DNA from: a virus
Direction: 5' to 3' (one strand)
DNA length: 47,175 nucleotides
IMG/VR virus record: IMGVR_UViG_3300025122_005921
Coordinates: 1 to 47,175 of that record
The first letter of the stretch is position 1. The number at the start of each line of letters is the position of its first letter. The notes below the pieces were generated by a model. It saw only the letters and a list, made by a program, of their open reading frames with translations, did no database searches and was not told the DNA's origin. Positions 5,053 through 20,215 of this stretch are shown here, in pieces. Made by a program: the position numbers and the translations under genes.

Positions 5053-5146
5053 ATTTTATTTATATCACTTTTATTTTAAAAGTACAGTATTAACCAGACC
5101 AGTAAACATTTGTAAAATACATCATAACTCTTGGATTAGGTTAGCA
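5053..5146. promoter_or_regulatory. Divergent intergenic region with TATAAATA box on minus strand
   Basis: This AT-rich gap separates the minus-strand radical SAM unit from the plus-strand genes. On the minus strand, positions 5064-5057 read TATAAATA, the exact core of T4-type late promoters recognised by gp55. It sits only 4 bases upstream of the radical SAM ATG, so a transcript would begin at or beside the start codon and have almost no leader. No Shine-Dalgarno is seen there. The same octamer occurs inside a gene at 17629-17636, so chance is a real alternative. On the plus strand no confident promoter is seen. Confidence 0.3.
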
Positions 5147-5908
5147 ATGATAAATAATATCGCAGTTGTGACATATACAAATTCTATATGTGAGGATATA
5201 TGGCCAATTTATTTCGGTCAGTTAGATAAATATGGAAACAAACTTAAAAGTTATGTTTTTTCAGATAAGCTTCCTAGCCCAGGAGAGTTTGAAGGACACA
5301 CGTTTCTCAAGTATAATAATGAAAATCCCTATTACATGCAGTATAATAATTTATTAGAATCACTAGAAGAGGAGTACATCATATACTGTCAAGAAGATTT
5401 TTTCCTACAGAGCGAAATAGACTATGAAGAATTAAAGAGATGTCTTCTGGTTCTAGAAAATACAGACTATTCATTTGTAAGGCTTGTTAAGACAGATATC
5501 GGAGCGTGGAAACATTCTAGTGAATGTAAAAAAAGAGATTGGGAAGTGATAGAGTTGGATGACAATATATACTGCGCACATTCAACAGATTTCGATGCAT
5601 TTTCATTCCAGATGCAAGCAACCTTGTGGAAAAAGTCAGATATGATTAATCTTTACAACCATGTCAAATCAGAAAAGTGGCTTGAAGACAGAGAGTGGGA
5701 TAAGGGAATGAGAGAAACAAATACAAAAGGTTCATATTACTATAAGGACTCCGCTAAGGAAGGGCCTTATCACTGGGCGCCTGAAATTTGGCCATATGTG
5801 TGTACTGCCGTTGGAAGGGGAAAGTGGACGCTTTCTGTTCATGGAGATAGGCTTTTAAATATTCTTAATGAATATAGTGTTGATATTAGAAAAAGAGGAA
5901 TTAGATAA
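5147..5908 (+). CDS. Putative GT-A-like glycosyltransferase (paralogue of 6967-7740)
   Basis: With the start at ATG 5147 (MINNIAVVTYTNSICEDIW) the protein has 253 residues and aligns end to end with the gene at 6967. The longer frame opening at 4979 would run through the divergent gene's start and is rejected. A YIIYCQEDF segment near residue 75-83 sits where a GT-A enzyme carries its metal-binding acidic pair. Both copies share a C-terminal block (GKWTLSVHG, then NEY and KRG). No membrane segment is present. The family is one I cannot name, so glycosyltransferase is inferred from the acidic motif and from its setting among sugar genes. It opens the plus-strand run after the minus-strand island. 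Confidence 0.55.
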   Translation: MINNIAVVTYTNSICEDIWPIYFGQLDKYGNKLKSYVFSDKLPSPGEFEGHTFLKYNNENPYYMQYNNLLESLEEEYIIYCQEDFFLQSEIDYEELKRCLLVLENTDYSFVRLVKTDIGAWKHSSECKKRDWEVIELDDNIYCAHSTDFDAFSFQMQATLWKKSDMINLYNHVKSEKWLEDREWDKGMRETNTKGSYYYKDSAKEGPYHWAPEIWPYVCTAVGRGKWTLSVHGDRLLNILNEYSVDIRKRGIR

Positions 5909-5915
5909 AGCATTT

Positions 5916-6134
5916 ATGAAAACCTATGAGCATTATAGAAATATCGGTGGCTACCCTTCATTTGATCAATTAAATTATATTATTGACTGGTCTCAATTTA
6001 ATGATGATCCCAGGACACAAAACTTAGATCTACATCTAGGATCACTTATAAATCACAGTCTTATTAGAGATGACAAGATTAATGTTCATGGATTTGGAGA
6101 GCATCCTAACGGCTGGTGGAATGGAAAAAAATAG
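5916..6134 (+). pseudogene. Truncated N-terminal copy of the glycosyltransferase at 9328-10326
   Basis: This 72-residue frame (MKTYEHYRNIGGYPSFDQL...) matches only the first ~70 residues of the 332-residue protein at 9328. Shared elements include FNDDPRTQNLDLHLG against FANDPRTKDIDFHIG, and GEHPNGWWNGK against GEWPNSWFNGK. It then stops just after WWNGKK, so the donor-binding half is missing. It begins 7 bases after the preceding gene. It is best read as a remnant of a duplicated gene pair, because the gene before it is also duplicated (at 6967). It may still be translated, and could act as a small acceptor-binding protein, but no catalytic part remains. Confidence 0.6.
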
Positions 6135-6141
6135 GGCCACT

Positions 6142-6954
6142 ATGATAAAAACAGTAATATCACAGCGTGAAGCACTAAAAAAGCTATCACAGGCTATTAG
6201 TAAGCCCATTTATGTTGAAAAGACACAGTCTTCGGAAATAAGGGCAAGCAATATTGATCCACAAATAGTCTCTTCATGGTACGATCACTTAAATAAAAGC
6301 GGCATTCTAGTCGTTAGCTCAAGGACAGACATTTTAAATTTTTTAATTCATAGATATAATCTTGTGTCTTATTTAGAAATTGGGGTACGAGATGGTAACA
6401 ATTTTAGAAATATTAGATGTCTAAATAAGACAGGAGTTGATCCTTCAAAAGAGTTCCCAGATATTGAAAATGTTGTGTATACGACTTCAGATGAATTCTT
6501 TTCTTCTCTTGAGGGGGATGTAAAGTATGATCTAATATTTATCGATGGTCTTCATTTAGATCACCAGGTAAGCAAAGATATTCAAAATTCTCTTAGCCAC
6601 CTTTATGAAAATGGAATAATTTTAATGCATGACTGTAACCCTCCTACTATTCATCATGCTCGTGAAGACTTCAGTGATCTAAGCACACCTGCTGGAGGAA
6701 AGTGGAATGGAACAACATGGAAGGCATATGCTAGAGAGAGGTGTACAAATAAAGATATCTTTGCATGTGTTATTGATTTGGACTGGGGTTGTGGATTAAT
6801 TCATATTCAGGATAAGCAAAAGCTATATAATAAAGACGAACTTGATACATGCTTAGAGTACACATACATGGATGAAAATAGAAAAAGTTTGCTTAATTTA
6901 ATATCTGTGGATAAGTTTTTATCCATGGATATTGGAAAAGATACTCAAGGATAA
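6142..6954 (+). CDS. SAM-dependent methyltransferase, Methyltransf_24-like
   Basis: The class I methyltransferase core is visible: motif I YLEIGVRDGNNF (residues 78-89), an acidic residue after the second strand (GVDPSKEF), and LIFIDGLHLDHQV (131-143) followed by GIILMHDCNPP. The IDGxH plus HD pattern is typical of the Methyltransf_24 family in sugar clusters, which O-methylates sugars and may bind a metal through the Asp and His residues. I chose ATG 6142 because a TAGGG element lies upstream and residues before it do not resemble the family. The frame extends upstream to 6070, overlapping the truncated gene. The protein has 270 residues and is soluble. It probably caps or decorates the glycan. 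Confidence 0.75.
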   Translation: MIKTVISQREALKKLSQAISKPIYVEKTQSSEIRASNIDPQIVSSWYDHLNKSGILVVSSRTDILNFLIHRYNLVSYLEIGVRDGNNFRNIRCLNKTGVDPSKEFPDIENVVYTTSDEFFSSLEGDVKYDLIFIDGLHLDHQVSKDIQNSLSHLYENGIILMHDCNPPTIHHAREDFSDLSTPAGGKWNGTTWKAYARERCTNKDIFACVIDLDWGCGLIHIQDKQKLYNKDELDTCLEYTYMDENRKSLLNLISVDKFLSMDIGKDTQG

Positions 6955-6966
6955 TAAGGATTTAAA

Positions 6967-7740
6967 GTGAAAGATTTAAGCAAGATATCGTTAGTAACAT
7001 ATACCAATTTAAATTGTCATGACATATTAAGGCCCCATATAGGTCAAATAGATAAATTTGCTAGCAAGTTTAAGAGTCATATTTTTACAGATGGCGTCCC
7101 AGATTTTGGCTTTAATAAAGACAGACATCAAATATCAATATATGATGATAGTGAGCCATACTATAAGCAATGGTTGACTTGCCTAGATAATGTAGAAGAA
7201 GATTATATAATTTATCTTCAAGAAGACTTTTGGTTATTTGATCACACTGATTATAGTGAAATTTTAAGATGTAAAAAGTTTTTAGATGAAAGTGATTATA
7301 GCTTTGTTAGACTTGCAAAATATGATCTTAGGCTTGGAATGCATAGACCAAAGTCTTATAAGATAAAAGATTTCCCTGATGTTAGGCTAGACGATAATAT
7401 ATTTGATGCATATTGTCATGATAGTGATTGTTATTCATTTATGATGCAGGCAACACTTTGGAAAAAGAAAGATTTTATAAAACTATATAGCCAGGCAAAA
7501 TCCACTAGAATCGAATCTCCAGAGTGGTGGGAAGCAACAATGGATTGCAAGATAAAAGGTGCGTTTTATCATCAAGAGGATATGCCTAAGCTTGGCCCAT
7601 GGCATTGGCAGTCTAAGACATTACCTCATATATCTACGGCAGTAGGATATGGAAAATGGACACTATCTGTTCATGGAGGTCGTTTATTAGATATAATAAA
7701 TGAGTATGGAATAGATGTTAAAAAAAGAGGAACAAGATAG
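6967..7740 (+). CDS. Putative GT-A-like glycosyltransferase (paralogue of 5147-5908)
   Basis: This 257-residue protein starts at GTG 6967, behind an AAGGA Shine-Dalgarno at 6956-6960. It matches the protein at 5147 across its length: VTYTN near the start, YIIYLQEDFW around residue 78-87, FMMQATLWKKKD in the middle and GKWTLSVHGGRLL near the end. The QEDF motif is a plausible metal-binding pair. It follows the methyltransferase by 12 bases. The divergence between the two copies is large enough that they may use different donors or acceptors. The family name is not recognised, and the function is inferred from motif and context. Confidence 0.55.
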   Translation: MKDLSKISLVTYTNLNCHDILRPHIGQIDKFASKFKSHIFTDGVPDFGFNKDRHQISIYDDSEPYYKQWLTCLDNVEEDYIIYLQEDFWLFDHTDYSEILRCKKFLDESDYSFVRLAKYDLRLGMHRPKSYKIKDFPDVRLDDNIFDAYCHDSDCYSFMMQATLWKKKDFIKLYSQAKSTRIESPEWWEATMDCKIKGAFYHQEDMPKLGPWHWQSKTLPHISTAVGYGKWTLSVHGGRLLDIINEYGIDVKKRGTR

Positions 7741-7748
7741 TGGAGCTG

Positions 7749-7850
7749 ATGTTAAGATTTATTAATTTTATTATTTCTATATTTAAGAGAAATAAAGAAG
7801 ATGAAAAAGAATCTGCATCTAGAAAAAATGATCCATTCATATATGATTGA
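7749..7850 (+). CDS. Very small membrane peptide (33 residues)
   Basis: This short frame opens at ATG 7749, 8 bases after the previous stop, with GGAG at 7742-7745 close upstream. The product, MLRFINFIISIFKRNKEDEK and 13 more residues, has one short hydrophobic helix followed by a strongly charged tail, like a single-span or membrane-surface peptide. It fills an otherwise empty gap between a glycosyltransferase and the carbamoyltransferase and ends just before the latter's start, which is consistent with a real coupled gene. The tight Shine-Dalgarno spacing and small size leave doubt. No family is recognised. Confidence 0.4.
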   Translation: MLRFINFIISIFKRNKEDEKESASRKNDPFIYD

Positions 7851-7855
7851 TCTTA

Positions 7856-9310
7856 ATGAGAATACTAGGAATAAATTGTTTAAATCATGATTCAGCAATA
7901 TCTGTCATAGAAAATGAAGAGATTGTGTTTGCATCTCATTCTGAACGGTATAGCAGAATTAAAAATGACAAGTATTTAAATGACGACATTATTGAAGATG
8001 CACTAAGCTATGGAATTCCAGATAGGGTTATTTATTATGAGAGACCGTATTTAAAAAAGCTTAGACAGGCATATGCAGGACAATGGTCTCGAGCTATCTC
8101 AGAAGATAATCTTCCATCCAAGTACCTGAGTCGATGGTTCAACGAAAAAGATATCTACTATGTAGATCACCATAAGAGTCACGCAGCAGCTGGGTATTAT
8201 ACATCAAGTTTTGATGAAGCTGTTGTCGTCGTCATTGATGCCATTGGAGAATGGGATGTTTGCAGTATCTGGCATGGAAAAGGCAATAAGCTTAAAAAGA
8301 TTAAAAGTATAAAATACCCACATTCTTTGGGAATTTTTTATTCTGCCATGACACAAAGAGTGGGATTAAAGCCATGCGAAGAAGAGTATATTTTAATGGG
8401 AATGTCGGCATGGGGAGAGCCAAAATACAAGAATAAAATATTAGAAGATTTTTTTCATTTAGATAAGATGTATAAGTTAAAGAAAAATCTTCACAAGGGT
8501 GTTGGAGATTATATTCCTGACGGAGAGGACTTTGATATAGCTGCAAGCACTCAGGCTGTAACTGAGCATATTCTAGATTGGGTATTTATGAATGCCAAAA
8601 AGATTCTCCCTGAGGTTGAAAATTTGGTGTATATGGGTGGGGTATCATTAAATTGTGTAGCTAATTCTGCAATACTTCCAAAATATTATTCCAATGTATG
8701 GATAATGCCAAATCCTGGAGATGCTGGATCTTCTCTAGGGTGCGCTACTGCCTATTATGGAAAGAAAATAAATTGGAAGACTCCCTTTTTAGGAAAAAAT
8801 ATATCTGGAAAATATCCTGTAAAAGATGCACTTGATCTCTTAGATAAAGGTGAGATATTTGGAATAGCCTCCGGGCGTGCAGAGTTTGGCCCTAGGGCAC
8901 TAGGAAATAGAAGCCTTCTAGCAGATCCTCGTGGAAATGAAATAAAGGATAGGGTCAATGAGATTAAAAAGAGACAAAAATTTAGACCATTTGCTCCTGC
9001 TGTGCTAGAGGAAAAGGCTCATGAAATATTTGAATTACCTGTTTCTAAAGTTCCCTACATGCAATTTATTGGGAAGTGTAAGTTTCCAGAAAAATATCCA
9101 GCAATTTGCCATGTAGATAATACAAGCAGAGTCCAGACAGTTTCTAAGAAAGATAATCCTGGGTTTTATAATCTAATAAAAGAGTTTTACAAGAAAACTG
9201 GATGTCCATTATTATTAAATACTAGTCTAAACATAAAGGGCCAGCCAATAGTCAATGATAAAAAATGTGCGAGAGAATTTGAAAAATTTTATAATGTCAC
9301 AGTATTATAG
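7856..9310 (+). CDS. Carbamoyltransferase, NodU/CmcH/TobZ family
   Basis: The N-terminal Kae1-like domain is recognised by MRILGINCLNHDSAISV and FASHSERYSRIKND; the middle has VYMGGVSLNCVANS and PNPGDAGSSLG. The C-terminal domain carries GRAEFGPRALGNRSLLADPR and the RPFAPAVL segment. Members use carbamoyl phosphate and ATP to carbamoylate a hydroxyl of a sugar, as NodU does on Nod factors. At 484 residues it is somewhat shorter than most relatives but has both domains. ATG 7856 fits the family start; the frame also opens at TTG 7847. With the sulfotransferase, methyltransferase and SGNH protein it forms a set of decorating enzymes. Confidence 0.88.
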   Translation: MRILGINCLNHDSAISVIENEEIVFASHSERYSRIKNDKYLNDDIIEDALSYGIPDRVIYYERPYLKKLRQAYAGQWSRAISEDNLPSKYLSRWFNEKDIYYVDHHKSHAAAGYYTSSFDEAVVVVIDAIGEWDVCSIWHGKGNKLKKIKSIKYPHSLGIFYSAMTQRVGLKPCEEEYILMGMSAWGEPKYKNKILEDFFHLDKMYKLKKNLHKGVGDYIPDGEDFDIAASTQAVTEHILDWVFMNAKKILPEVENLVYMGGVSLNCVANSAILPKYYSNVWIMPNPGDAGSSLGCATAYYGKKINWKTPFLGKNISGKYPVKDALDLLDKGEIFGIASGRAEFGPRALGNRSLLADPRGNEIKDRVNEIKKRQKFRPFAPAVLEEKAHEIFELPVSKVPYMQFIGKCKFPEKYPAICHVDNTSRVQTVSKKDNPGFYNLIKEFYKKTGCPLLLNTSLNIKGQPIVNDKKCAREFEKFYNVTVL

Positions 9311-9327: not shown

Positions 9328-10326
9328 ATGAGAACTTTTGAACACTGGAGACGCTCACCGTATGGATATGAAGATCATATAATGTATATGAATAACTGGA
9401 ACCAGTTTGCAAATGACCCTAGGACAAAAGATATTGATTTTCATATTGGTTGCAAGCCTGACTTTACAACTATTGATAACAGCAAAATAAATATTCATAG
9501 CTTGGGAGAATGGCCTAATTCCTGGTTTAACGGAAAGGTAAGGGGACAAAACATTGCCAATAATAAAGAAATAGAGAAAAATTTTGACTATATTTTTTCT
9601 TATTGTAAGCAAACTGCAGCAGGAAGAGGCTCGCCCTATATGCATGTGCCATATGCCTATGATTTTAATCACATATTATCAGGGCTGTCTTTTAATAGCA
9701 TAGATCAAGTAGCCAAAGATATAGACGTATTCATGTGTGCAACTCTTCCTGGTGAAAAAACACTCGGTGAAAAGCATCCTGTGTGGGACTGGTACAAAAC
9801 TATGGAAAAGTTTAATAATATTTTTTGTAATAGCTGCTGGAATCACACAAAGTATTCATGGAAAGATAAGCAATCTTTTTCAGCTAGAAGCAAGATATCT
9901 ATTGTTTTTTGTGATTTCATAGGCTCAACACCTAAGTGTAGGGAATTTGCCAGAACTAACTATCCATGGATAAAATTTAAAGAAGGAGAAGGAATAACTA
10001 AGCCAGTTACTCCACAACCTAAGCACCGTATTTTCGATGCAGCATTTTCTAAGTCTATAATCTTGTGTCATAAAAGTCCATTCGTAGGAGAAGATTCTCC
10101 ATATAACCCACCAATAGAGGATTATCTTGATCCGTCGACTGATTTTATATATTTTGATAACGATAAAGATCTAGAAATCAAGATTCGTGAAATATTGAAT
10201 AACTATGATGACGAAAAATATAAAAAAATGACTCAAAGTGCATTTGATAAATATAAGAATAGCTTTGATATAGAGAAAATATATGAAAAATATATAGTTC
10301 CGATCGCTGAAAAAGGAAAACAGTAA
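9328..10326 (+). CDS. Glycosyltransferase, Glyco_trans_1_2-like
   Basis: This 332-residue protein has an N-terminal region duplicated at 5916 (FANDPRTKDIDFHIG, GEWPNSWFNGK). Its C-terminal half has the look of a GT-B donor domain: RIFDAAFSKSIILCHKSPF, then FIYFDNDKDLEIKIREIL and a final helix, as in Glyco_trans_1_2 proteins. There is no membrane segment. The start follows the carbamoyltransferase by 17 bases with a TAGGG element. Its stop overlaps the next ATG (TAATG). The donor is unknown. The complete copy here contrasts with the broken copy at 5916. Confidence 0.65.
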   Translation: MRTFEHWRRSPYGYEDHIMYMNNWNQFANDPRTKDIDFHIGCKPDFTTIDNSKINIHSLGEWPNSWFNGKVRGQNIANNKEIEKNFDYIFSYCKQTAAGRGSPYMHVPYAYDFNHILSGLSFNSIDQVAKDIDVFMCATLPGEKTLGEKHPVWDWYKTMEKFNNIFCNSCWNHTKYSWKDKQSFSARSKISIVFCDFIGSTPKCREFARTNYPWIKFKEGEGITKPVTPQPKHRIFDAAFSKSIILCHKSPFVGEDSPYNPPIEDYLDPSTDFIYFDNDKDLEIKIREILNNYDDEKYKKMTQSAFDKYKNSFDIEKIYEKYIVPIAEKGKQ

Positions 10327-10718
10327 TGTCTGAAAGAAAATATCTACCAACTCTATCAGAGCTTATAGATAGACTTTCGATTATACAGCTAAAGGAAGTA
10401 TTTATTTCTGATCATAAAGAAGAATATGCGCAAGAAATAGATGATATATGTCATGATATTGATATTCTATTACCTGAATCTGGTGATTTAATAAGGGCAA
10501 TAATTGTGTTATCACAAATGAACTTACATATCTGGCATAACGAATCAAACTATCGCAAGGGCATTAAAGACGGAAATAATTTAGAGTTAACTCATGGTCT
10601 TAATGGGATCAGAAATACTGCAAAAAATAAAATACAAGAAAAAGTAGGCGGAAGAAAAGATTATAAAATTGATTGTCTAGCAGTAGAATTTAAAGATTGG
10701 GAAATAAGCTGGAACTAG
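10326..10718 (+). CDS. Conserved small protein of glycan loci, function unknown
   Basis: This 130-residue, mostly helical protein has LSELIDRLSIIQLK near the start, NLHIWHNESNYRKG in the middle and GLNGIRNTAKNKI after it. These resemble patterns of uncharacterised DUF4254/DUF6165-type proteins that sit in bacterial and phage polysaccharide clusters, though I cannot assign one family firmly. It has no membrane segment or catalytic signature that I can name. It is coupled to the glycosyltransferase by a TAATG overlap, so the two products may form a complex. It ends 12 bases before panB. Confidence 0.5.
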   Translation: MSERKYLPTLSELIDRLSIIQLKEVFISDHKEEYAQEIDDICHDIDILLPESGDLIRAIIVLSQMNLHIWHNESNYRKGIKDGNNLELTHGLNGIRNTAKNKIQEKVGGRKDYKIDCLAVEFKDWEISWN

Positions 10719-10730
10719 TAAGGAGTATTT

Positions 10731-11687
10731 ATGGCGGCTGATGATAGAAATAAGGTAACAGTCTTAAAGCTTAGAAGGCAAAAGAAGCAAGGAAGTAAAA
10801 CAGTGTTAGTCACTGCTTACGACTACCCACAGGCAAGAATTTCTGATGGGGCTGGAGTAGATTGTATTCTAGTTGGAGATTCACTTGGAATGACAACTTT
10901 AGGATATAAAACAACCATTCCAGTAACTATGGATGACATGATAAGACATTCTGAGGCTGTCGCAAGAGGAGCAAAGAAAGCATTTCTTATAGGAGACATG
11001 CCATATATGTCTTATCAGGTATCTAATGAAGAGGCTGTATACAATGCTGGACGATTTGTTAGGGCAGGTATGGACTGTGTCAAGGTTGAAGGTGCAATGA
11101 TCGAAAGAATCAAGGCCATAGCCGATTCAGGTATAATGGTCATGAGTCATTTAGGGTTGACACCCCACACAAGAGCAAAACTAGGTGGGTATAGAGTTCA
11201 AGGAAAAACAGCAAAGCAAGCTGAGCTTATTCTTGAGCAAGCACTTTCCCTTCAGGAGGCGGGCTGTTCATTTTTACTATTAGAGGGAATGCCTAGAGAG
11301 TCAGCAGAGATAATTGCTTCAAAGCTTCAAATTCCAGTATACGGAATCGGAGCCGGGGACAAGGTAGACGGTCAGTTAGTTATTTTTCATGATTTGATGG
11401 GTCTGTTTTGGGAATTTAAATCTAAGTTTGTAAAGAGATATTGTGAGGCAGGTCAAATAATGCAAAGTGCTCTAATTGATTATGTTAATGAGGTTCGCAC
11501 TGGTGAATTTCCCTCTGAAGAAAACTTTTATGCCATTAAGGAAGAAGAGCTAGAAAAATTATTGGGAGGAGGAAATTGGAAAACTGAAAGGATAGTGTAT
11601 GAGACAGATCAGGGATTTCCTACCAACCACTGTGCTACTCCCAACACTGTAACGGAAGTTAAAAACAAAAAAAAAAATAAAGAATAA
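10731..11687 (+). CDS. panB: 3-methyl-2-oxobutanoate hydroxymethyltransferase (PanB)
   Basis: PanB adds a hydroxymethyl group from 5,10-methylene-tetrahydrofolate to alpha-ketoisovalerate, giving ketopantoate for coenzyme A. The match is strong: VTAYDYPQARISD, CILVGDSLGM, PVTMDDMIRHSEAVARG, GDMPYMSYQ and LGGYRVQGKT. The metal and catalytic residues appear conserved at Asp50, Asp89, Lys118, Glu120 and Glu185, matching the spacing of the E. coli enzyme. A good AAGGAG precedes the ATG. At 318 residues it is about 40-50 longer than usual, with a C-terminal extension ending in a lysine- and asparagine-rich tail. It lies in a sugar operon just before an acetolactate-synthase-like gene, with no other pantothenate gene, so an altered substrate is possible. 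Confidence 0.93.
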   Translation: MAADDRNKVTVLKLRRQKKQGSKTVLVTAYDYPQARISDGAGVDCILVGDSLGMTTLGYKTTIPVTMDDMIRHSEAVARGAKKAFLIGDMPYMSYQVSNEEAVYNAGRFVRAGMDCVKVEGAMIERIKAIADSGIMVMSHLGLTPHTRAKLGGYRVQGKTAKQAELILEQALSLQEAGCSFLLLEGMPRESAEIIASKLQIPVYGIGAGDKVDGQLVIFHDLMGLFWEFKSKFVKRYCEAGQIMQSALIDYVNEVRTGEFPSEENFYAIKEEELEKLLGGGNWKTERIVYETDQGFPTNHCATPNTVTEVKNKKKNKE

Positions 11688-11726
11688 CAATCTAACAGAT
11701 TATCAGATCTACTGTTTAGAAAATCC

Positions 11727-11731
11727 AGGAG
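11727..11731 (+). promoter_or_regulatory. Shine-Dalgarno deciding an ATT start
   Basis: AGGAG lies 6 bases upstream of the ATT codon at 11738, which is the only position in this frame with a well-spaced ribosome site. No ATG, GTG or TTG exists in the frame between the upstream stop (TAG at 11717) and the start of the conserved TPP domain. This supports ATT as the real initiation codon. Confidence 0.6.
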
Positions 11732-11737
11732 AATCTC

Positions 11738-13597
11738 ATTAAAAATAGCCAAAAAATAAAAGTAGCTGATTATCTCATAAATAGATTATCTGAGTATGGT
11801 GTTAAAGAAGTTTTTCAAGTATACGGAGCTGCCACTGGCCATCTTGTAGATGGATTTGTTAGAGCAGAAGGTATAAAATATATTGCACCATTTCATGAAC
11901 AAGCTTGTGGATTTGCAGCTGAGGGATATGCAAAGGTAACTGGAAATTTTGGTGTAGCTATGTCGACAAGTGGTCCGGGCGGTCAAAATTTAGTAACTCC
12001 AGCAGGAAATTGTTATTTTGATTCAGTTCCATGTCTCTTTATAACAGGCCAGGTAAAGCAGCAGTTTATGAGGCCAGATGAGTCAATAAGACAGATAGGC
12101 TTTCAAGAATCTGATATGGTTGGATTGATGTCCTCTGTAACAAAATATTCAGTAATGGTTTCAAAGCCAGAAGATATAAAGTATGAGCTTGAAAAAGCTA
12201 TTCATATAATGAAGTCAGGTCGTCCCGGTCCTGTTCATTTAGACATCCCAATAGATGTTGCAAAGGAAATGATAGACCCTGACGAGATATTTGGATTTGA
12301 TACAGAGTTAGAAAGTGTATTTGATATATCAAAAATAGATGATAAAATAGAGTCATATATTAAAGATCTAATGTCTTCAAAAAGACCCACGCTGCTAGTA
12401 GGTGGCGGGGTTCGTTTGTCAGGAGCAGAAAAAGAAATACTAGAGCTAGGAAGAATTTTAAAAATACCAGTATTTCCCACATGGAATGCGCTGGATATAA
12501 TTTGTTCAGACTATGAATTTTATGCAGGAAGAATAGGAACATATGGGGGAGCTGGGAGAAACTTTGGAATTCAAAATTCAGACTTGCTTTTATCAATTGG
12601 TAGTAGAATATCAGGTAGAATCACCGGCGGAAATATACACAGTTTTGCCAGAGAGGCGAAAAAATATATAGTAGATGTTGATAAGCCTGGGCTACAAAAA
12701 AAATTACAGCAAGTTCCATTTGACGAATGTATTTTATCTGATGCAAAGCTTTTTATAGAAAGATTAATTTATAAAATAAAAAATATTCCAGACTTTTCTC
12801 AATGGATGGCAGAATGCACGGAGTGGAGAGATAAGTACGATCCTGTAACTCAAGAAATGTTTGATAGTTCAGAGTATGTACATCCTTATGCGTTTACGAG
12901 AATCCTATCTGAAGAAATGAGTAGTAATGATATATTAGTGGGGGATTGTGGTGGAAATATAGTTGTTATAAACCACTCGTTTAAGACAAAGACTGGTCAA
13001 AGATACTTTACCAATAATGGAAATTCTCCAATGGGATTTTCTTTTGCTGCATCTATAGGTGCGTGGTTTGCTTCTGATAAGGAGAGACAGAACGTTGTGT
13101 GTATAATTGGTGATGGAGGAATGAATATGAATATTCAAGAACTTCAAACATTGGTAAATTATAATGTATGTGTTAAAGTTATAATTTTAAATAATCACAT
13201 ATATGGTATAACTAAAGCATTCCAGGAGACTAATTTTGAAGGAAGAATGGAAGCGTGTGGACCTATAGGATATAATCCTCCTGATTTTATTAAAATTGCA
13301 CAAGCGTACGGATTAGCAACTATGACAATTGAAGGAACAGATTATGAACAAATTAGAAATCAAATAAAAGATATAATAGCTCATGATGGTCCAATTATAA
13401 TTGATGTAAATTGTCATGAACATCATACATATGAGCCTAAATTAATAGGATGGGAAACTCCAATAGAAGATATGTATCCATATTTGGACAGGGAAGAATT
13501 TTTGAAAAATATGCATATTAAGCCTTTAGATATATCTTTAAACCCTGATAAGCTTGTATACCCTACCAAGGTTGATGATAATGGTTCAATGGAGTAA
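11738..13597 (+). CDS. TPP-dependent acetolactate-synthase-like enzyme, ATT start
   Basis: The protein has the three-domain layout of acetohydroxyacid synthases. The N-terminal domain has the catalytic glutamate in HEQACGFAAEGYAK (Glu54) and STSGPGGQN. The C-terminal TPP-binding motif begins GDGGMNMNIQELQ at residue 458 and ends IILNN. Starting at ATG 11960 would remove the first ~74 residues including that glutamate, so the true start is upstream, at ATT 11738, giving 619 residues. Known relatives join pyruvate-derived two-carbon units to keto acids. In sugar clusters, YerE-type members attach them to 4-keto sugars to make branched sugars such as yersiniose. Neighbouring ColD-like and dehydratase genes fit such a role. 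A plain acetolactate role next to panB is the alternative. Confidence 0.85.
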   Translation: MKNSQKIKVADYLINRLSEYGVKEVFQVYGAATGHLVDGFVRAEGIKYIAPFHEQACGFAAEGYAKVTGNFGVAMSTSGPGGQNLVTPAGNCYFDSVPCLFITGQVKQQFMRPDESIRQIGFQESDMVGLMSSVTKYSVMVSKPEDIKYELEKAIHIMKSGRPGPVHLDIPIDVAKEMIDPDEIFGFDTELESVFDISKIDDKIESYIKDLMSSKRPTLLVGGGVRLSGAEKEILELGRILKIPVFPTWNALDIICSDYEFYAGRIGTYGGAGRNFGIQNSDLLLSIGSRISGRITGGNIHSFAREAKKYIVDVDKPGLQKKLQQVPFDECILSDAKLFIERLIYKIKNIPDFSQWMAECTEWRDKYDPVTQEMFDSSEYVHPYAFTRILSEEMSSNDILVGDCGGNIVVINHSFKTKTGQRYFTNNGNSPMGFSFAASIGAWFASDKERQNVVCIIGDGGMNMNIQELQTLVNYNVCVKVIILNNHIYGITKAFQETNFEGRMEACGPIGYNPPDFIKIAQAYGLATMTIEGTDYEQIRNQIKDIIAHDGPIIIDVNCHEHHTYEPKLIGWETPIEDMYPYLDREEFLKNMHIKPLDISLNPDKLVYPTKVDDNGSME

Positions 13598-13602
13598 TTA
13601 AA

Positions 13603-14040
13603 GTGATAAAGTCTTTTGAAAGATATTTTGTTAACACGTCTGATCAACGAACAGGAGAGAATAATGGTAAGCTTTATTCTTTATGGAAGCATTATGAAAA
13701 AGATAGAAGCCTGCCGCCTATGGAGCTGTATATAACAACATTTAATCCAGGGGTTTTAAAAGGTCCTCACTTACATAAAACAAGATGGGATTATTTTACA
13801 TGTATCAAAGGTAAGGTCGCTATTATTGTAAAAGACTCTGATAATAAATATTATGAATTTATATCATCAGAAGATAATCCTATAACTGTAGAAGTACCCG
13901 CAAATATACCCTCTGCGACTATTAATCTTACAAATGAAATTGCAATGGTGACAAATCTGTGTAATCCTGCGTGGCATCCTGACAATGAAGATAATTACAA
14001 TATTGAATTTATTGATTATAATTTTGAAAAATGGAAATAA
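13603..14040 (+). CDS. RmlC-like sugar cupin
   Basis: This 145-residue single cupin has the family core GPHLHKTRWDYFTCIKGKVAIIVKD and later VEVPANIPSATINL and NPAWHPDNEDN. It resembles dTDP-4-keto-sugar epimerases and the related ketoisomerases, which reposition or epimerise carbons next to a keto group. It may be the 3,5-epimerase of the dTDP-rhamnose route, whose other three enzymes are at 25.5-28.0 kb. Alternatively it acts on the product made by its immediate neighbours. Translation starts at GTG 13603 with GGAG at 13591-13594, inside the end of the upstream gene. It overlaps the radical SAM gene by 10 bases. Confidence 0.65.
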   Translation: MIKSFERYFVNTSDQRTGENNGKLYSLWKHYEKDRSLPPMELYITTFNPGVLKGPHLHKTRWDYFTCIKGKVAIIVKDSDNKYYEFISSEDNPITVEVPANIPSATINLTNEIAMVTNLCNPAWHPDNEDNYNIEFIDYNFEKWK

Positions 14041-15482
14041 TCAATAAGGTGGATGTACTTTTAATAAATGTATCAGAAGATGCAGAAAAAAATCATAGAA
14101 CTAGAGTGGGTCATGGATCACATAAAGGATTTGTTGAATCACAGCTAGCAGCCGGACTTGCAATGGCGCAATCTCCGCACATTGGATTAGCATATTTGCT
14201 TGCAATTACTCATAAAAATGAAATGGATGGTCATATTATTGATATGGCCGCAGATGACTATGCTGTTGAAGATATTTTAGATTATGTTGATAAGCATATG
14301 CCAAAAATAATAGGAATGACAGCTTTCACCATTCAAGTTAAAAGTGCTGGGTATATTGCATCTAAAATTAAAGAAAGACATCCTGATATCATAATTGTTT
14401 TAGGTGGCGCTCATGCAACAGCTATGCCAGTTGAAGCATTAGAAGAATTCTCAGCATTTGATTGTACAGTTCCCGGTGAGGGTGACGTTCCTTGGTATAA
14501 TATTTTAAATAACATGCACACACTCTCTAGTATTCCTGGAGTTGTAACACGAGAAAATTATGATAAACAATATGTAAATAAAACAGTTCATTCAACACCT
14601 ATTAAGCAAATAGTTAGAATAGAGGATTTGAATGAAATACCTTTTCCAAGATGGGAAGGATTTAATCTATCTCGATATGCCGGTGATTGCCCTCATGGGA
14701 CAAAGCTAGAGCTACCAATGTCTACAAGCAGAGGTTGTCCTTACAAGTGTAATTTTTGCTCTAGAATGTTTGGTAGAAAAAGAAAATCTAGATCAATTGA
14801 TTCAATAATTGAAGAAATGCATAGAAATGTTGATGTATTTGGTGCAGAGGCTATAGCTTTTTTAGATGAAACATTTGTTGCAAGTAAAAATTTTAGTAGA
14901 GAATTATTTCAAAGAATGATTGATGAGGGACTGAATAAAAAAGTAAAGTGGTCATGTGAGACAACTGTTCATCTAGATGATCCTGAATTTTATGCACTTA
15001 TGAAAAGAGCTGGTTGCTACTATGTATTTTACGGATTTGAAAGTGGCAATGCAGAAATGCTAAAAAGAATTGGAAAGGGTGTACATCATAAATCTCAGAT
15101 AGTTAAAGCTACGAAAGCAGCACATTCTGCCGGCATAGTAGCTGTAGGAAGTTTTATTTTAGGATTACCAGGTGAAACAGAGGCGACTGTTATGGAATCT
15201 ATTGAAGTTGCAAAAACACTATATGATCACGTGTATTCAATAACTTTTCCAATTGCTGTTCCGTTTCCAGGAACTCTGGCTAGAACTTATGCAGAAACAG
15301 GTGAGTTTGGATTAAAAATATTGACAAATGATTGGGATTTTTATGGCAAACAATATCCAGGAGTAATGGATAGTGATGTTTTAAGCATAGACAGATTAAG
15401 AGAACTTCAAGCTCATGCCTATGAACAAATACCTAAAAAGAATCTAGATGAATTTTTACATCTTAAATCACAGCAAGCTTGA
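14031..15482 (+). CDS. B12-binding radical SAM protein
   Basis: The N-terminal half reads as a cobalamin-binding domain (VDVLLINVSED, then IIIVLGGAHATAMPVEAL and VPGEGD). The radical SAM domain has SRGCPYKCNFC with Cys236, Cys240 and Cys243. At 483 residues it belongs with class B cobalamin-dependent enzymes, often C-methylases or ring-modifying enzymes. It differs clearly from the minus-strand enzyme at 3562, so the two probably act on different substrates. A ferredoxin gene begins 10 bases downstream and could reduce its cluster. Its place between a cupin and a ColD-like enzyme points to a nucleotide-sugar substrate, such as a C-methylation, but this is inference. Confidence 0.87.
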   Translation: MEIINKVDVLLINVSEDAEKNHRTRVGHGSHKGFVESQLAAGLAMAQSPHIGLAYLLAITHKNEMDGHIIDMAADDYAVEDILDYVDKHMPKIIGMTAFTIQVKSAGYIASKIKERHPDIIIVLGGAHATAMPVEALEEFSAFDCTVPGEGDVPWYNILNNMHTLSSIPGVVTRENYDKQYVNKTVHSTPIKQIVRIEDLNEIPFPRWEGFNLSRYAGDCPHGTKLELPMSTSRGCPYKCNFCSRMFGRKRKSRSIDSIIEEMHRNVDVFGAEAIAFLDETFVASKNFSRELFQRMIDEGLNKKVKWSCETTVHLDDPEFYALMKRAGCYYVFYGFESGNAEMLKRIGKGVHHKSQIVKATKAAHSAGIVAVGSFILGLPGETEATVMESIEVAKTLYDHVYSITFPIAVPFPGTLARTYAETGEFGLKILTNDWDFYGKQYPGVMDSDVLSIDRLRELQAHAYEQIPKKNLDEFLHLKSQQA

Positions 15483-15492
15483 GAATGTTTAG

Positions 15493-15753
15493 GTGTCTGA
15501 TAAAAATGATAAATGGGAAGATAATGTCGGTGGATTATCTATCATAGCAGGAAAGAAAGTATCATTTTATGTAGACAGAGAATGTATACTTTGTTCAATC
15601 TGTTCAGAAGCTGCTCCAAATAATTTCAAAATAAGTGATGATGAAGATCACGATATCTGTTATAAGCAGCCTGATAGTGAAGAAGAGCTAGAGGAGTGCT
15701 ATGAGGCGCTGGAAAATTGTCCAGTTGATACTATAGGTGATGATGATATATAA
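15493..15753 (+). CDS. Small [4Fe-4S] ferredoxin
   Basis: This 86-residue acidic protein carries ECILCSICSEAAP with Cys31, Cys34 and Cys37, and Cys76 in ENCPVDTIG. This is the ligand set of a single [4Fe-4S] cluster ferredoxin. Two further cysteines (56 and 69) could form a disulfide, as in some monocluster ferredoxins. The start is GTG 15493 with a weak ribosome site. It lies directly after a radical SAM gene and before the ColD-like gene, so it is probably the electron donor for the radical SAM enzyme, or less likely for a deoxygenation by its neighbour. No ferredoxin reductase is in the window. Confidence 0.85.
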   Translation: MSDKNDKWEDNVGGLSIIAGKKVSFYVDRECILCSICSEAAPNNFKISDDEDHDICYKQPDSEEELEECYEALENCPVDTIGDDDI

Positions 15754-15756
15754 ATT

Positions 15757-15765
15757 TGGTATAAA
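15757..15765 (+). promoter_or_regulatory. Possible extended -10 promoter upstream of the ColD-like gene
   Basis: TGGTATAAA fits an extended -10 element (TGn followed by TATAAA). It lies just after the ferredoxin stop, with a start of transcription expected about 35 bases before the next ATG. The -35 region is poor. A second TATAAT is present at 15782-15787. The next gene has a good AAAAGGG ribosome site at 15795-15801. It resembles the stronger element at 28866-28874. Confidence 0.35.
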
Positions 15766-15808
15766 ATTATTTTTTTATGAATATAATTGAATTCAAAAGG
15801 GTATATCA

Positions 15809-16975
15809 ATGTATAGTTGGCCACTTATAAATGACAATGTTTCAAATAAAGACAAACAAGCGCTTGTAGAATTTTTACAAACTCCCAATATTCGTCTCAC
15901 ACAGGGAGAAAAAGTAAGACAGTTTGAAGAAGAATGGTCTAGGTGGCTGGGGGTAAAGCACAGTGTCTTTGTAAATTCGGGAGCAAGTGCAAACTATATC
16001 ATGACTGCCATAGTCAGAGATTTAAAAGGCAGGTGTGAGGTAATTGTCCCACCTATTGGCTGGGTAAGTGATATAGCACCTGTAGTCAATTTAGGAATGA
16101 AACCTGTTTTTGTAGATGTTAATTTAGAAAACTTGGCGATGTCAGTTAGTAATATTGAGTCTGCAATAACAGAAAAAACAGGTGCAATTATTTTAGTTCA
16201 TGTGCTAGGGTTTAATGGATTAAATGATAAGATTATAGAAATTGCTAAAAAGAACAATTTAATTCTCATAGAGGATTGTTGTGAATCTCATGGCGCTACT
16301 CTCAATAATAAGAAAGTTGGGACATTTGGTGACATGTCAAATTTTTCATTCTATTTTGGGCACCACATGACAACAATAGAAGGCGGAATGGTATGCACTA
16401 ATAATGAAAATATTTATAATTTGGCAAAAAGTTATAGATCGCACGGAATGATAAGAGATTCTTCTGTCGATGTAAGAGAAAGATATAGAACAGAATATCC
16501 AGAGCTCAATCCTTTATTTACATTTAGAGTTCCCGGCTTTAACATGAGAGGAACCGAGTTGAATGCAGTAATAGGACTGGAACAGCTTCCAAGGCTAGAT
16601 GAAAATATTGATTTAAGAAATAGAAATTTAAAATTATTTCTATCTTTACTAAAGCCTAGCTTGTATCACACTGAGTATAGTGTAAATGGGTGTAGTAATT
16701 TTGCTTTACCCATTATATTGAAAAATAATAATAGTGAATTATTTCAAAAAATTTGTAATATTTTAAAATTAGAAAAGATAGAATTTAGAAAAGGAGCAGC
16801 AGGCGGTGGAAATCAGGTAAATCAGCCGTATCTTGAAAAATATAGCTATAGAGTGGATAATAATTTAAAAATAGCCGACCATATTCATAATTTTGGCTTA
16901 TATGTTGGAAATCATTCTGATGTAAGTTTTGAAGATATACACCATCTATGCGATCTTATAAACGATATAGGATGA
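15809..16975 (+). CDS. ColD-like PLP-dependent nucleotide-sugar 3-dehydratase
   Basis: The protein has the DegT/DnrJ/EryC1 aminotransferase fold: FVNSGASANY, IVPPIGWVSDI, EDCCESHGA, and the FSFYFGHHMTTIEGGMV segment. In aminotransferases this last segment carries the lysine that binds PLP; here it is histidine (His185-His186). That change is the hallmark of the 3-dehydratases ColD and RfbH/E1, which remove the C3 hydroxyl of 4-keto-6-deoxy sugars. TIEGG and the absence of the extra iron-sulfur cysteines favour ColD, which acts on GDP-4-keto-6-deoxymannose and makes PMP from glutamate. The 388-residue length also fits ColD. A GDP-mannose dehydratase gene at 19190 would supply the substrate. 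Confidence 0.85.
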   Translation: MYSWPLINDNVSNKDKQALVEFLQTPNIRLTQGEKVRQFEEEWSRWLGVKHSVFVNSGASANYIMTAIVRDLKGRCEVIVPPIGWVSDIAPVVNLGMKPVFVDVNLENLAMSVSNIESAITEKTGAIILVHVLGFNGLNDKIIEIAKKNNLILIEDCCESHGATLNNKKVGTFGDMSNFSFYFGHHMTTIEGGMVCTNNENIYNLAKSYRSHGMIRDSSVDVRERYRTEYPELNPLFTFRVPGFNMRGTELNAVIGLEQLPRLDENIDLRNRNLKLFLSLLKPSLYHTEYSVNGCSNFALPIILKNNNSELFQKICNILKLEKIEFRKGAAGGGNQVNQPYLEKYSYRVDNNLKIADHIHNFGLYVGNHSDVSFEDIHHLCDLINDIG

Positions 16976-17298: not shown

Positions 17299-18267
17299 GT
17301 GTTTAAAGATAAAAATGTCCTAGTGACAGGTGGCACTGGAATGATTGGTAGAGAGCTTATAGACATTTTATTACAAAGAGGTGCAAATATTACAGTATGT
17401 GACTTATTTGACCCATGTGATATTGAAAATATAAAATTTATAAAAAAAGATTTAAGATATCTAGATCAGTGCATGGAAGTATGTAAAAATAAAAATTTTG
17501 TTTTCAATCTTGTGGGAATAAAAGCTTCACCAAAAATGTGTGCTGAGCAACCGGCTGATATAATGGTACCTATGATGATGTTTAATACAAATATGATGCA
17601 TGCGGCAATGAGTAATAAAGTCGAGTGGTATTTATATACTAGTTCTGTGGGTGTTTATCAGCCAGCAGAAGTATTATATGAGGATGATGTATGGTCAACA
17701 CAGCCATCTAAAAATGACTGGTATGGTGGCTGGGCAAAAAGAATAGGTGAATTACAAGCAGGTGCTTATGGAGTTCAATATAAAAATAAAAATATATCAA
17801 TTGTAAGGCCTGCTAATGTGTATGGACGATATGATAATTTTGATCCTGAAAACGCTATGGTGATTCCTGCACTAATCCGGAAGGCTCACAAAAGTCAAGT
17901 ATTGGAAGTATGGGGAGATGGAACACCCATACGAGACTTTATTCATGCAAAAGATGTCGCTAGGGGCATGATACATGCCGTAGAAAATAAAATTATAGAT
18001 CCCATAAACTTAGGAAGCGGCGACGGAGTCCAGATAAAAACTATTGCAGAGACAATAGCAAGGGAGTTTAACAGGCCCATTAAATGGCTCCCAGTCAAGT
18101 CCCCAGGTGATCCACGAAGGGTTTTTGACATGACACGAGCAAAATCTTATGGATTTAATACTACTGTGTCAATAGAGCAGGGTATAAAAGACACAATTGA
18201 CTGGTTTTTAAAAAACAAAGATAGTGTTGATAATAGATTTAACGCATTTAAAAAAGAGGTAATATGA
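17299..18267 (+). CDS. NAD(P)-dependent sugar epimerase/reductase (SDR, WcaG/ColC-like)
   Basis: This extended SDR has the nucleotide-binding motif VLVTGGTGMIGRELI at the N-terminus, NLVGIKASP, the YTSSVGVY strand, RPANVYGRYDNF and WGDGTPIRDFIHAKDV. It is 322 residues, start GTG 17299. Its gene neighbours suggest the 4-reductase/5-epimerase step that turns the ColD product into a GDP-sugar, as ColC or GDP-fucose synthase does. The catalytic YxxxK is odd: the motif here is YGGWAK, with Tyr142 five residues before Lys147 instead of four. Either the loop shifts or another residue donates the proton. It is followed by a related SDR through an ATGA overlap. The exact substrate is uncertain. Confidence 0.7.
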   Translation: MFKDKNVLVTGGTGMIGRELIDILLQRGANITVCDLFDPCDIENIKFIKKDLRYLDQCMEVCKNKNFVFNLVGIKASPKMCAEQPADIMVPMMMFNTNMMHAAMSNKVEWYLYTSSVGVYQPAEVLYEDDVWSTQPSKNDWYGGWAKRIGELQAGAYGVQYKNKNISIVRPANVYGRYDNFDPENAMVIPALIRKAHKSQVLEVWGDGTPIRDFIHAKDVARGMIHAVENKIIDPINLGSGDGVQIKTIAETIAREFNRPIKWLPVKSPGDPRRVFDMTRAKSYGFNTTVSIEQGIKDTIDWFLKNKDSVDNRFNAFKKEVI

Positions 18268-19211
18268 GTTTTTTCACAGGTAAGAATATTTTAGTGACAG
18301 GTGCTGCCGGGCTAGCTGGCAGCGCAGCAGTTCTTAGGCTTTTAGATGAAGGCTCTAATGTAAGAGCAACAATCTTTAATTCTAGAAAGTTAAATTTTAA
18401 GAATAGTAATCTTGAAGTCGTAAAGTGTGATCTTCACAGTTATAAATCATGTCTTGATGTAACAGATGATATTGATATTGTCTTAAATTTTGTTGCTTAT
18501 ATTAGAGGAGCCAAGGGACAGGTTGAGTCTCCTACTTCTCTGGTAAGAAACAATGTAAATCCAGCAATGAATATGATTGATGCTGCAGCCGCTTCTGGAG
18601 TTGAAAGATTTGGTTTCGTAGGAAGCTCTACTAGCTATCCTCCAAGCGACTCTCCAATTTTAGAAAACCAGGGATTTGACGATGAACCCTATCCGTGCTA
18701 TGAGGGTGTGGGGTGGATGAAAAGGTACAGTGAAAAAGTTTGTCAATACTTTCATAAAAATAGCAATACTAAATTCGCAATGACAAGAACAACTGCAATC
18801 TACGGCCCTAGGGATAACTTCAATGAACGGGGTCATGTAATACCACAGCTTATTCTCAAAGCTGACAGACAAGATAATCCCTTTGAAGTGTGGGGGGACG
18901 GAAGCCAGATTCGTGATTTTATCTATGTTGACGATTTAGTAGATGGTCTTCTATACACTGTTGAGCATCATGCTGTTGCAGATCCTGTTAATATTGCAAC
19001 AGGTACGCCTACTAGTGTAAGGACTCTGGCAAGAACAATCACAGATGCATATGAATACAGTCCAGAATTTTACTTTGACGAGACAAAACCTACAATGATT
19101 CCAACGAGATTAGTAGATGTTACTAAAGCAAGCGATCTAGGATGGCGCGCACAAACAAATTTAAAAACCGGAATAAAAAAGACAGTTGAATGGTACAAGA
19201 AAAATCAATAA
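18264..19211 (+). CDS. SDR-family sugar epimerase/reductase-like protein with altered active site
   Basis: This 315-residue protein has ILVTGAAGLAGSAAV at the start, ATGTPTSVRTLA in the C-terminal part and WGDGSQIRDFIYVDDLV, so it is an extended SDR related to the gene just before it. The usual YxxxK is missing: the equivalent segment is CYEGVGWMKRYSEK, with the lysine (Lys153) kept but the nearest tyrosine seven residues away. The Ser/Thr of the catalytic site lies in FVGSSTSYPP. The protein may still bind NAD(P) and a nucleotide sugar and act as a non-standard epimerase or as a partner of the SDR at 17299. The gene is coupled upstream by ATGA and downstream by a 22-base overlap with gmd. 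Confidence 0.65.
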   Translation: MSFFTGKNILVTGAAGLAGSAAVLRLLDEGSNVRATIFNSRKLNFKNSNLEVVKCDLHSYKSCLDVTDDIDIVLNFVAYIRGAKGQVESPTSLVRNNVNPAMNMIDAAAASGVERFGFVGSSTSYPPSDSPILENQGFDDEPYPCYEGVGWMKRYSEKVCQYFHKNSNTKFAMTRTTAIYGPRDNFNERGHVIPQLILKADRQDNPFEVWGDGSQIRDFIYVDDLVDGLLYTVEHHAVADPVNIATGTPTSVRTLARTITDAYEYSPEFYFDETKPTMIPTRLVDVTKASDLGWRAQTNLKTGIKKTVEWYKKNQ

Positions 19212-20215
19212 AAAGATCATTTATTACAGGGATCACAGGAATGGTGGGATCTCATTTAGCTGATTTCTTACTAGAAAATACAGATTGGAAAATTTATGGA
19301 TTTTGTAGATGGAATGATGATTTCACAAACTTAAGACACCTGTTTGATAGAATTAATAATAATGATAGGATCACTATCATTTATGGTGATTTAAATGACT
19401 ACGCATCTGTTTCATCTGCTGTGAGGGACTCTAGCCCTGATTATATTTTTCACCTGGCTGCTCAAAGCTATCCTAAGACTAGTTTTTCTGCACCGCTGGA
19501 GACATTGCAGACAAATATTATAGGAACAGCAAATGTGCTGGAGTCAATAAGAAGCATAGATATCGATCCAGTAGTCCACATATGTGCTTCTTCAGAGGTT
19601 TTTGGAAGAGTTTCCCAGGAGGACGTGCCAATCAAAGAAGACTGTATTTTTCACCCTGCCTCTCCCTATGCTATATCAAAAGTAGGAACAGACTTGCTTG
19701 GTAGATTCTATGCGGAAGCATATGATCTTAAAATCATGACAACTAGAATGTTTACACACACTGGCCCAAGAAGAGGTGATGTATTTGCAGAATCTACATT
19801 TGCAAAACAAATTGCAATGATAGAAGAAGGAATACAGGCACCAATTGTAAAAGTTGGAAACTTAGACTCAATGAGAACGTGGTCTGATGTTAGAGATGCA
19901 GTTAGGGCATATTATATGCTTGTAACGATTAACCCGATTCCAGGAGAGTATTATAATATAGGTGGAAGTTTTTCTTGTTCTGTTAAAGAGATGCTTAGCT
20001 ATCTTTTGAGTCTTTCAAGCAGGGATGATATAGAAGTTATGGTAGAGGAGGCTAGATTGAGACCTATTGACGCAGATCTTCAAATACCATGCACTGAGAA
20101 ATTTGAAAATCACACTGGGTGGCGTCCCGAAATATCATTTGAAAAAACCATGAAAGATCTTTTGAATTATTGGAGAAATCGAGTTAAAAATGAAAAAATA
20201 TTTCTGTCAAGGTAA
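19190..20215 (+). CDS. gmd: GDP-mannose 4,6-dehydratase
   Basis: This enzyme makes GDP-4-keto-6-deoxy-D-mannose, the common precursor of GDP-fucose, GDP-rhamnose, GDP-perosamine and GDP-colitose. The sequence shows the Rossmann motif ITGITGMVGSHLADFL, HLAAQSYPKTSF, the ASSEVFG strand and a proper YAISK (Tyr160, Lys164). The family-specific segment is FTHTGPRRGDVFAES, followed by VGNLDSMRTWSDVRDAVRAY, which separates it from dTDP-glucose dehydratases. Length is 341 residues. ATG 19190 lies in the end of the upstream SDR. With the ColD-like enzyme at 15809 it gives the first two steps toward 3,6-dideoxyhexoses. GDP-mannose must come from the host. Confidence 0.88.
   Translation: MVQEKSIKRSFITGITGMVGSHLADFLLENTDWKIYGFCRWNDDFTNLRHLFDRINNNDRITIIYGDLNDYASVSSAVRDSSPDYIFHLAAQSYPKTSFSAPLETLQTNIIGTANVLESIRSIDIDPVVHICASSEVFGRVSQEDVPIKEDCIFHPASPYAISKVGTDLLGRFYAEAYDLKIMTTRMFTHTGPRRGDVFAESTFAKQIAMIEEGIQAPIVKVGNLDSMRTWSDVRDAVRAYYMLVTINPIPGEYYNIGGSFSCSVKEMLSYLLSLSSRDDIEVMVEEARLRPIDADLQIPCTEKFENHTGWRPEISFEKTMKDLLNYWRNRVKNEKIFLSR

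Follow-up and report, generated by a model that had tools for sequence, protein, structure and literature searches.

A putative virus-borne pathway to branched-chain deoxysugars, probably with PanB as one of several interchangeable donor-making modules

The described systems nearest to the locus reported here are the yersiniose A, erwiniose and colitose pathways, the carboligase JanthE and the ketopantoate hydroxymethyltransferase PanB. In YerE-like enzymes, the donor is a 2-oxo acid and the acceptor a ketone (PMC12247030, PMC12188165). ErwE favours hydroxylated donors, namely 4-hydroxy-2-oxobutanoate and longer ones (PMC12247030), and 4-hydroxy-2-oxovalerate is accepted by JanthE (PMC12188165). 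PanB has previously been used as a 2-oxo-acid aldolase and hydroxymethylating enzyme (PMC7610986, PMC7611260). With regard to viruses, a marine survey interpreted the viral "pantoate transferase" as boosting CoA (PMC8940887), and another survey left genes located in LPS-like islands out of its catalogue (PMC11360552); this may explain why the PanB and TPP gene pair described below went unnoticed. No described pathway with PanB as a donor maker was found in the open-access literature, in agreement with the preliminary description of this DNA, which knew of none with such a gene set. More than 200 YerE-like clusters were reportedly surveyed in one study, which may already have noticed PanB.

The window, that is, the whole stretch of 47,175 nucleotides analysed here, is an IMG/VR virus record (IMGVR_UViG_3300025122_005921), in which T4-like baseplate genes and a long glycan locus are found. 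The six co-directional genes described before as a run from PanB to a ColD-like enzyme are all present on the + strand in that order, and profile matches confirmed their families. They and their neighbours are as follows.

10326..10718, + strand, small 130-aa protein directly 5' of PanB, without a Pfam match
10731..11687, + strand, PanB family, 2-oxo acid hydroxymethyltransferase (PF02548, 333.5 bits; TIGR00222, 289.6 bits against a cut-off of 207.55)
11738..13597, + strand, predicted YerE-like TPP carboligase, 619 codons (PF02775, PF00205, PF02776)
13603..14040, + strand, FdtA/WxcM-type cupin (PF05523, 37 bits)
14031..15482, + strand, B12-binding radical SAM enzyme (PF04055 and PF02310; CxxxCxxC)
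15493..15753, + strand, Fer4_13 ferredoxin (PF13370, 53 bits)
15809..16975, + strand, ColD-like PLP 3-dehydratase of the DegT fold (motif SFYFGHHMTTIEGG; 2gms, 213.5 bits)
17299..18267, + strand, SDR of the GDP-L-fucose synthase type (NF047922, 149 bits, below cut-off)
18264..19211, + strand, second SDR of the GDP-L-fucose synthase type (NF047922, 160 bits, below cut-off)
19190..20215, + strand, nucleotide-sugar 4,6-dehydratase, GDP-mannose 4,6-dehydratase-like (PF16363, 244 bits; TIGR01472, 171.7 bits)

The 130-aa protein also occurs near PanB in 13 loci (ORF cluster 21), with 50-86% identity among its relatives. Further 5' of the run, at 1443-9310, lie a UDP-galactopyranose mutase, a second B12-radical SAM gene on the minus strand and a carbamoyltransferase, and a sulfotransferase at 785-1492 stands just ahead of this region.

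The scan of viral contigs for PanB listed 80 loci, whose PanB is 68-89% identical to that of the window (68-83% for the aligned ones); the locus scans were pattern-based, so that the counts are to be read as at least these values and not as abundances. In all 81 PanB-bearing viral contigs listed, the window included, PanB directly adjoins a TPP gene, which lies upstream of it in 60 and downstream in 21, and clustering of all ORFs placed a DegT-fold gene near PanB in 73 of the 81. In the reverse direction, PanB adjoins the TPP gene in 16 of the 18 loci recovered with the window TPP and in 35 of the 39 recovered with a second TPP type, and in the remaining four the contig or locus ends straight after the TPP gene. 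The TPP partners diverge down to 31% identity, while the aligned PanB proteins stay 68-83% identical, and the PanB-paired TPPs are spread over at least four separate clades of the TPP tree. Moreover, the layout with a TPP gene also occurs in L175 and L217, which carry other PanB lineages with about 48% identity to the window PanB. The 81/81 adjacency means that the pairing is not due to chance. Against the possibility, raised in the preliminary description, that homologues never co-occur in sugar loci, PanB and the TPP gene occurred together in every viral PanB locus found. A search for the gene order elsewhere had also been proposed there; the PanB-TPP pair recurs in the viral contigs, but PanB adjoins none of 47 bacterial TPP genes. 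Likewise, among the matches listed from a collection of 84,980 genomes, PanB is about 42-53% identical and none has a TPP neighbour. In L201, L209 and L242, either mutation or an assembly error has divided the TPP gene between two frames or ORFs.

The conserved core is PanB, the TPP carboligase and the His-type PLP 3-dehydratase, joined in some loci by a B12-radical SAM gene. Thus, the six genes do not hold as one set as first thought, and we rejected them as a unit, the cupin and the ferredoxin being not recurrent. Around PanB of the window's TPP type, the cupin was found near 2 of 22 loci and a B12-radical SAM gene of some kind near 15 of 22. The window's radical SAM enzyme carries both a B12-binding domain and a CxxxCxxC radical SAM core, scores below the cut-off of every NCBIfam equivalog, and might possibly carry out a further C-modification, as predicted from its domains. 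The ferredoxin had no matches in related loci, short ORFs having been filtered out; it is possibly the electron donor of the radical SAM enzyme. In L303 (10305-12593), a 762-aa radical SAM protein has a CxxxCxxC motif running directly into an apparent intein.

The TPP frame is open and homologous upstream of ATG 11960, beginning at about 11738. An ATT codon there is preceded by an AGGAG ribosome-binding site (at 11727, 6 bases ahead), and the TPP genes of relatives have their ATG near this place. The gene probably starts with this ATT rather than with ATG 11960, and the gap between PanB and the TPP gene is about 50 bases from that start. The best solved sequence relative of the enzyme is JanthE (8rph), at 316 bits, the best acetolactate synthase reaching 267; the corresponding scores are 382 and 242 for the TPP of L028, and 989 and 213 for the aldolase-linked TPP of L223, which is 71% identical to JanthE. 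In fold comparison, the predicted structure of the window TPP (mean pLDDT 82) matched JanthE first (TM 0.90/0.92), and acetolactate synthases at about 0.8. In a tree with JanthE as the sole YerE-like reference, 41 sugar-locus TPPs and JanthE were set apart from 10 acetolactate-synthase-type sequences (SH-aLRT 98). The acetolactate synthase model TIGR00118 gave 335 bits, below its cut-off of 538, for a query without the N-terminal 74 residues. The TPP loci also encode makers of keto-deoxysugars, namely the His-type DegT partner and a 4,6-dehydratase. By sequence, fold and tree, the window enzyme is predicted to be a YerE-like carboligase, and the identity as an acetolactate synthase was rejected on score, fold and tree.

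A His in place of the PLP lysine is the mark of the 3-dehydratases ColD and RfbH. The DegT-fold enzyme of the window has this His where aminotransferases have the lysine (motif SFYFGHHMTTIEGG), and its best solved relative is ColD/WbdK (2gms), with 213.5 bits against 155 for the CDP-sugar dehydrase 3bcx. This agrees with its earlier assignment to a type that would deoxygenate C3. Among the DegT partners of TPP genes, this position was His in 92, Lys in one and unread in nine, and the partner in L002 exceeds the RfbH cut-off (446.8 vs 423). The best NCBIfam match of the window 4,6-dehydratase is TIGR01472, whose 171.7 bits lie under the cut-off of 415. Loci with the window's TPP type repeatedly contain the GMD-like dehydratase and Fcl-type SDRs: the SDR at 17299-18267, a candidate reductase of the 4-keto sugar or the branch, or an epimerase, recurs in these relatives with 50-55% identity, and the SDR at 18264-19211 has a 57% identical copy in L063. 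The GMD-like, ColD-like and Fcl-type genes suggest a GDP-sugar route for the window type and an RfbH-based route for the other TPP type. T4 gp23 was found in 7 of 29 records. Genes of the psbA/psbD type were found in two of the 29, the records of L038 and L187, which carry the RfbH-type module; at least some hosts of these viruses are thus probably cyanobacteria.

With regard to PanB itself, the window protein passes the housekeeping model TIGR00222, and nine positions, which we take to be catalytic, are invariant in 146 viral copies (near-copies included). The substrate of viral PanB could therefore still be 2-oxoisovalerate. On the other hand, positions 179, 183, 200, 212 and 214 (E. coli numbering) differ from housekeeping PanB, being mostly bulkier, and the changed pocket positions are found in all viral lineages, including the independent L175 and L217. 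Mutation of several residues, 212 and 214 among them, has been used to broaden the substrate range of E. coli PanB (PMC7610986), and the change at these two in viral PanB makes an acid smaller than 2-oxoisovalerate plausible. The predicted PanB structure is of modest confidence (pLDDT 71), and no argument here rests on it.

Partners were counted within three genes of 123 viral TPPs after 90% dereplication, each class being taken from the highest-scoring phmmer match to one or two seeds and the HpaI and DJ-1 types being assigned partly by motif. The partner was PanB in 66, DmpG/DmpF in 24, NeuB in 6, an HpaI-type enzyme in 5, and HMGL, DAHP synthase and a class I aminotransferase in one each; a DHQ-synthase-like gene was found in 8, none in 8, a DJ-1-like gene in 2 and a contig edge in one. 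None of the 66 PanB-paired TPPs has a second donor-type gene within three genes; at a distance of six genes, NeuB is near a PanB-paired TPP in 9 of the 123 loci. Beside the 47 bacterial TPP genes, the partner was HMGL in 10, NeuB in 8, DmpG in 3, HpaI in 3, DmpG with HpaI in one and an aminotransferase in one, while 21 have no recognised partner. Two strong TPP relatives were found in 398 Pseudomonadota genomes; one of the two lies in a contig with the order TPP, SDR, 4-hydroxy-2-oxovalerate aldolase, acetaldehyde dehydrogenase and RfbH-type DegT, and a bacterial operon (L272) has RfbG-RfbH-AcDH-aldolase-SDR-TPP. Viral loci with the same aldolase pair (DmpG/DmpF) and without PanB were also found. 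To account for the partners on the TPP tree, at least six switches between PanB and any other state are needed, and 14 when all partner types are distinguished; a bacterial aldolase-linked TPP is nested inside a PanB clade.

PanB and the partner families that replace it, except DHQ synthase and DJ-1, make 2-oxo acids. This, together with the donor use of YerE-like enzymes and the aldolase uses of PanB, indicates that PanB most likely makes the donor of the TPP enzyme, and its exchange for aldolases and others beside one TPP family points to a donor that is hydroxylated and longer than two carbons. The rule is not universal, because no donor-type gene was recognised within three genes in 8 of the 123 viral loci and 21 of the 47 bacterial ones, and 8 viral loci have a DHQ-synthase-like gene instead; moreover, as a counterpoint to the donor reading, NeuB also serves sialic-acid synthesis. 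JanthE-type TPPs stand beside DmpG/DmpF in viruses (L223, 5293-7107), with a relative in the bacterial operon (L272, 8548-10449), and this neighbourhood predicts 4-hydroxy-2-oxopentanoate as the natural donor of JanthE. A NeuB-family synthase is found at or near YerE-like TPPs in L252, L262, L337, L343 and L344 and in the bacterial L409, L410, L416 and L417, and it could provide a long ulosonic-type 2-oxo acid as donor. A DJ-1/PfpI-like gene lies near the TPP gene with no evident donor maker in L336, L340, L342, L347, L348, L303 and L332, several of which have a cupin, and a DHQ-synthase-like gene with a short SDR in L233, L248, L250, L321, L328, L333, L341 and L346.

From these data, it is likely that the window carries a virus-borne pathway for a branched-chain deoxysugar, in which PanB would be an exchangeable donor-making module, one among several. 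We infer its substrates, the order of its steps, the identity of the donor and the final glycan as follows. The 4,6-dehydratase would form a 4-keto-6-deoxy nucleotide sugar, probably GDP-linked in the window, from which the ColD-like PLP enzyme would take off the C3 hydroxyl to give a 3,6-dideoxy-4-keto sugar. PanB, acting outside vitamin B5 synthesis, would join the C1 unit of 5,10-methylene-THF to pyruvate or 2-oxobutanoate to give a 4-hydroxy-2-oxo acid. The YerE-like TPP enzyme would decarboxylate this acid and couple the acyl anion to the C4 ketone, so that C4 becomes a tertiary alcohol with a hydroxylated branch. The SDRs would reduce the remaining ketone, and glycosyltransferases of the locus would attach the sugar to a glycan. 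The preliminary idea of a branched deoxysugar was largely right as to the nucleotide-sugar locus, the YerE-like TPP enzyme and the ColD-like dehydratase, but the substrate of PanB is probably the donor acid rather than the sugar. A wider reading, which is plausible but tentative, is a modular system with a conserved sugar-acceptor part and an exchangeable donor cassette (PanB, DmpG/DmpF, HMGL-like, HpaI-type, DAHP synthase, NeuB or aminotransferase), with a distinct 2-oxo acid, and hence a distinct branched sugar, from each; viruses would have added the folate-based PanB cassette, not yet seen in bacteria, and the cassettes would vary surface glycans.

An unlikely alternative, nearest to the wording of the preliminary description, is a yersiniose-like scheme, in which the TPP enzyme adds a two-carbon unit from pyruvate, the donor of YerE (PMC12247030), and PanB separately hydroxymethylates C3 of the sugar beside the C4 ketone. 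As general chemistry, C3 of a 3-deoxy-4-keto sugar is acidic. PanB chemistry relies on metal chelation of a 2-oxo acid, which, with the catalytic positions unchanged, argues against action on the sugar C3, and the enzymes that replace PanB make 2-oxo acids and do not modify sugars. The interchange of PanB with aldolases points to the longer hydroxylated donor in place of the two-carbon and C1 additions first suggested. Quite improbable is another scheme, in which the joint product of PanB and the TPP enzyme is a hydroxylated aldehyde or acid, attached to the glycan as a decoration via an ester, amide or ether, with no carbon-carbon branch; the window does have further decorating enzymes (the carbamoyltransferase and sulfotransferase), but the TPP subfamily includes JanthE, which couples to ketones (PMC12188165), and a 3-dehydratase for ketone sugars repeatedly co-occurs.

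It is very unlikely that PanB is an auxiliary gene raising host pantothenate and CoA, supplied by the TPP enzyme as an acetolactate synthase. The window PanB passes the housekeeping model, and the marine survey reads viral "pantoate transferase" in this way (PMC8940887). Among cultured phages, no close PanB was found, and the nearest, in Microcystis phage MaAM05 (47% identity), does stand beside panC. However, PanC (PF02569) was found in 0 of 30 records searched, mostly fragments, which makes a role in pantothenate synthesis unlikely; the TPP groups with JanthE apart from acetolactate synthases, the partner genes are sugar enzymes, and aldolases take the place of PanB beside related TPP genes. 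We rejected the pantothenate/CoA role on the absence of PanC and on gene context. That the genes are auxiliary ones standing side by side without functional relation is hardly credible, since this is already contradicted for PanB, the TPP gene and the dehydratase by the 81/81 adjacency, the two gene orders and the several distant TPP lineages with PanB, though the cupin, the ferredoxin and the exact radical SAM gene differ among relatives.

The proposed donor-making role of PanB suggests a concrete chemistry for a gene pair common in marine viruses, and natural donors for YerE-like enzymes, including 4-hydroxy-2-oxopentanoate from DmpG for the JanthE type. New branched sugars would become predictable from gene order. 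If true, viruses have transferred a vitamin-pathway enzyme into glycan synthesis, and the published reading of viral PanB as a booster of host vitamin B5 and CoA would be corrected.

Finally, the locus can be compared with the known systems. It resembles the yersiniose A pathway (CDP-glucose dehydratase, DdhC/RfbH, YerE, YerF) in having a 4,6-dehydratase, a His-type PLP 3-dehydratase, a TPP carboligase and an SDR in one sugar locus; in contrast, the viral loci are virus-encoded and add PanB (or an aldolase and others) beside the TPP gene, and the window has a ColD-like dehydratase and probably a GDP-linked sugar. With ErwE and erwiniose it shares the proposed donor class of 4-hydroxy-2-oxo acids (PMC12247030), whereas the viral donor would derive from PanB and a folate C1 unit. 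JanthE (PDB 8rph) is the closest solved relative of the TPP enzymes, but the window TPP shares about 30% identity with it, and the CDG of JanthE is GDG in the window enzyme. The viral PanB has the family and catalytic residues of ketopantoate hydroxymethyltransferase, but no PanC partner was found in the records searched, and the viral enzyme is altered at the five pocket positions. The colitose pathway (ColB/GMD, ColD, ColC) shares with the window the GMD-like, ColD-like and Fcl-type SDR genes, to which the window adds the TPP carboligase and PanB, so that a C4-branched derivative is expected and not colitose.
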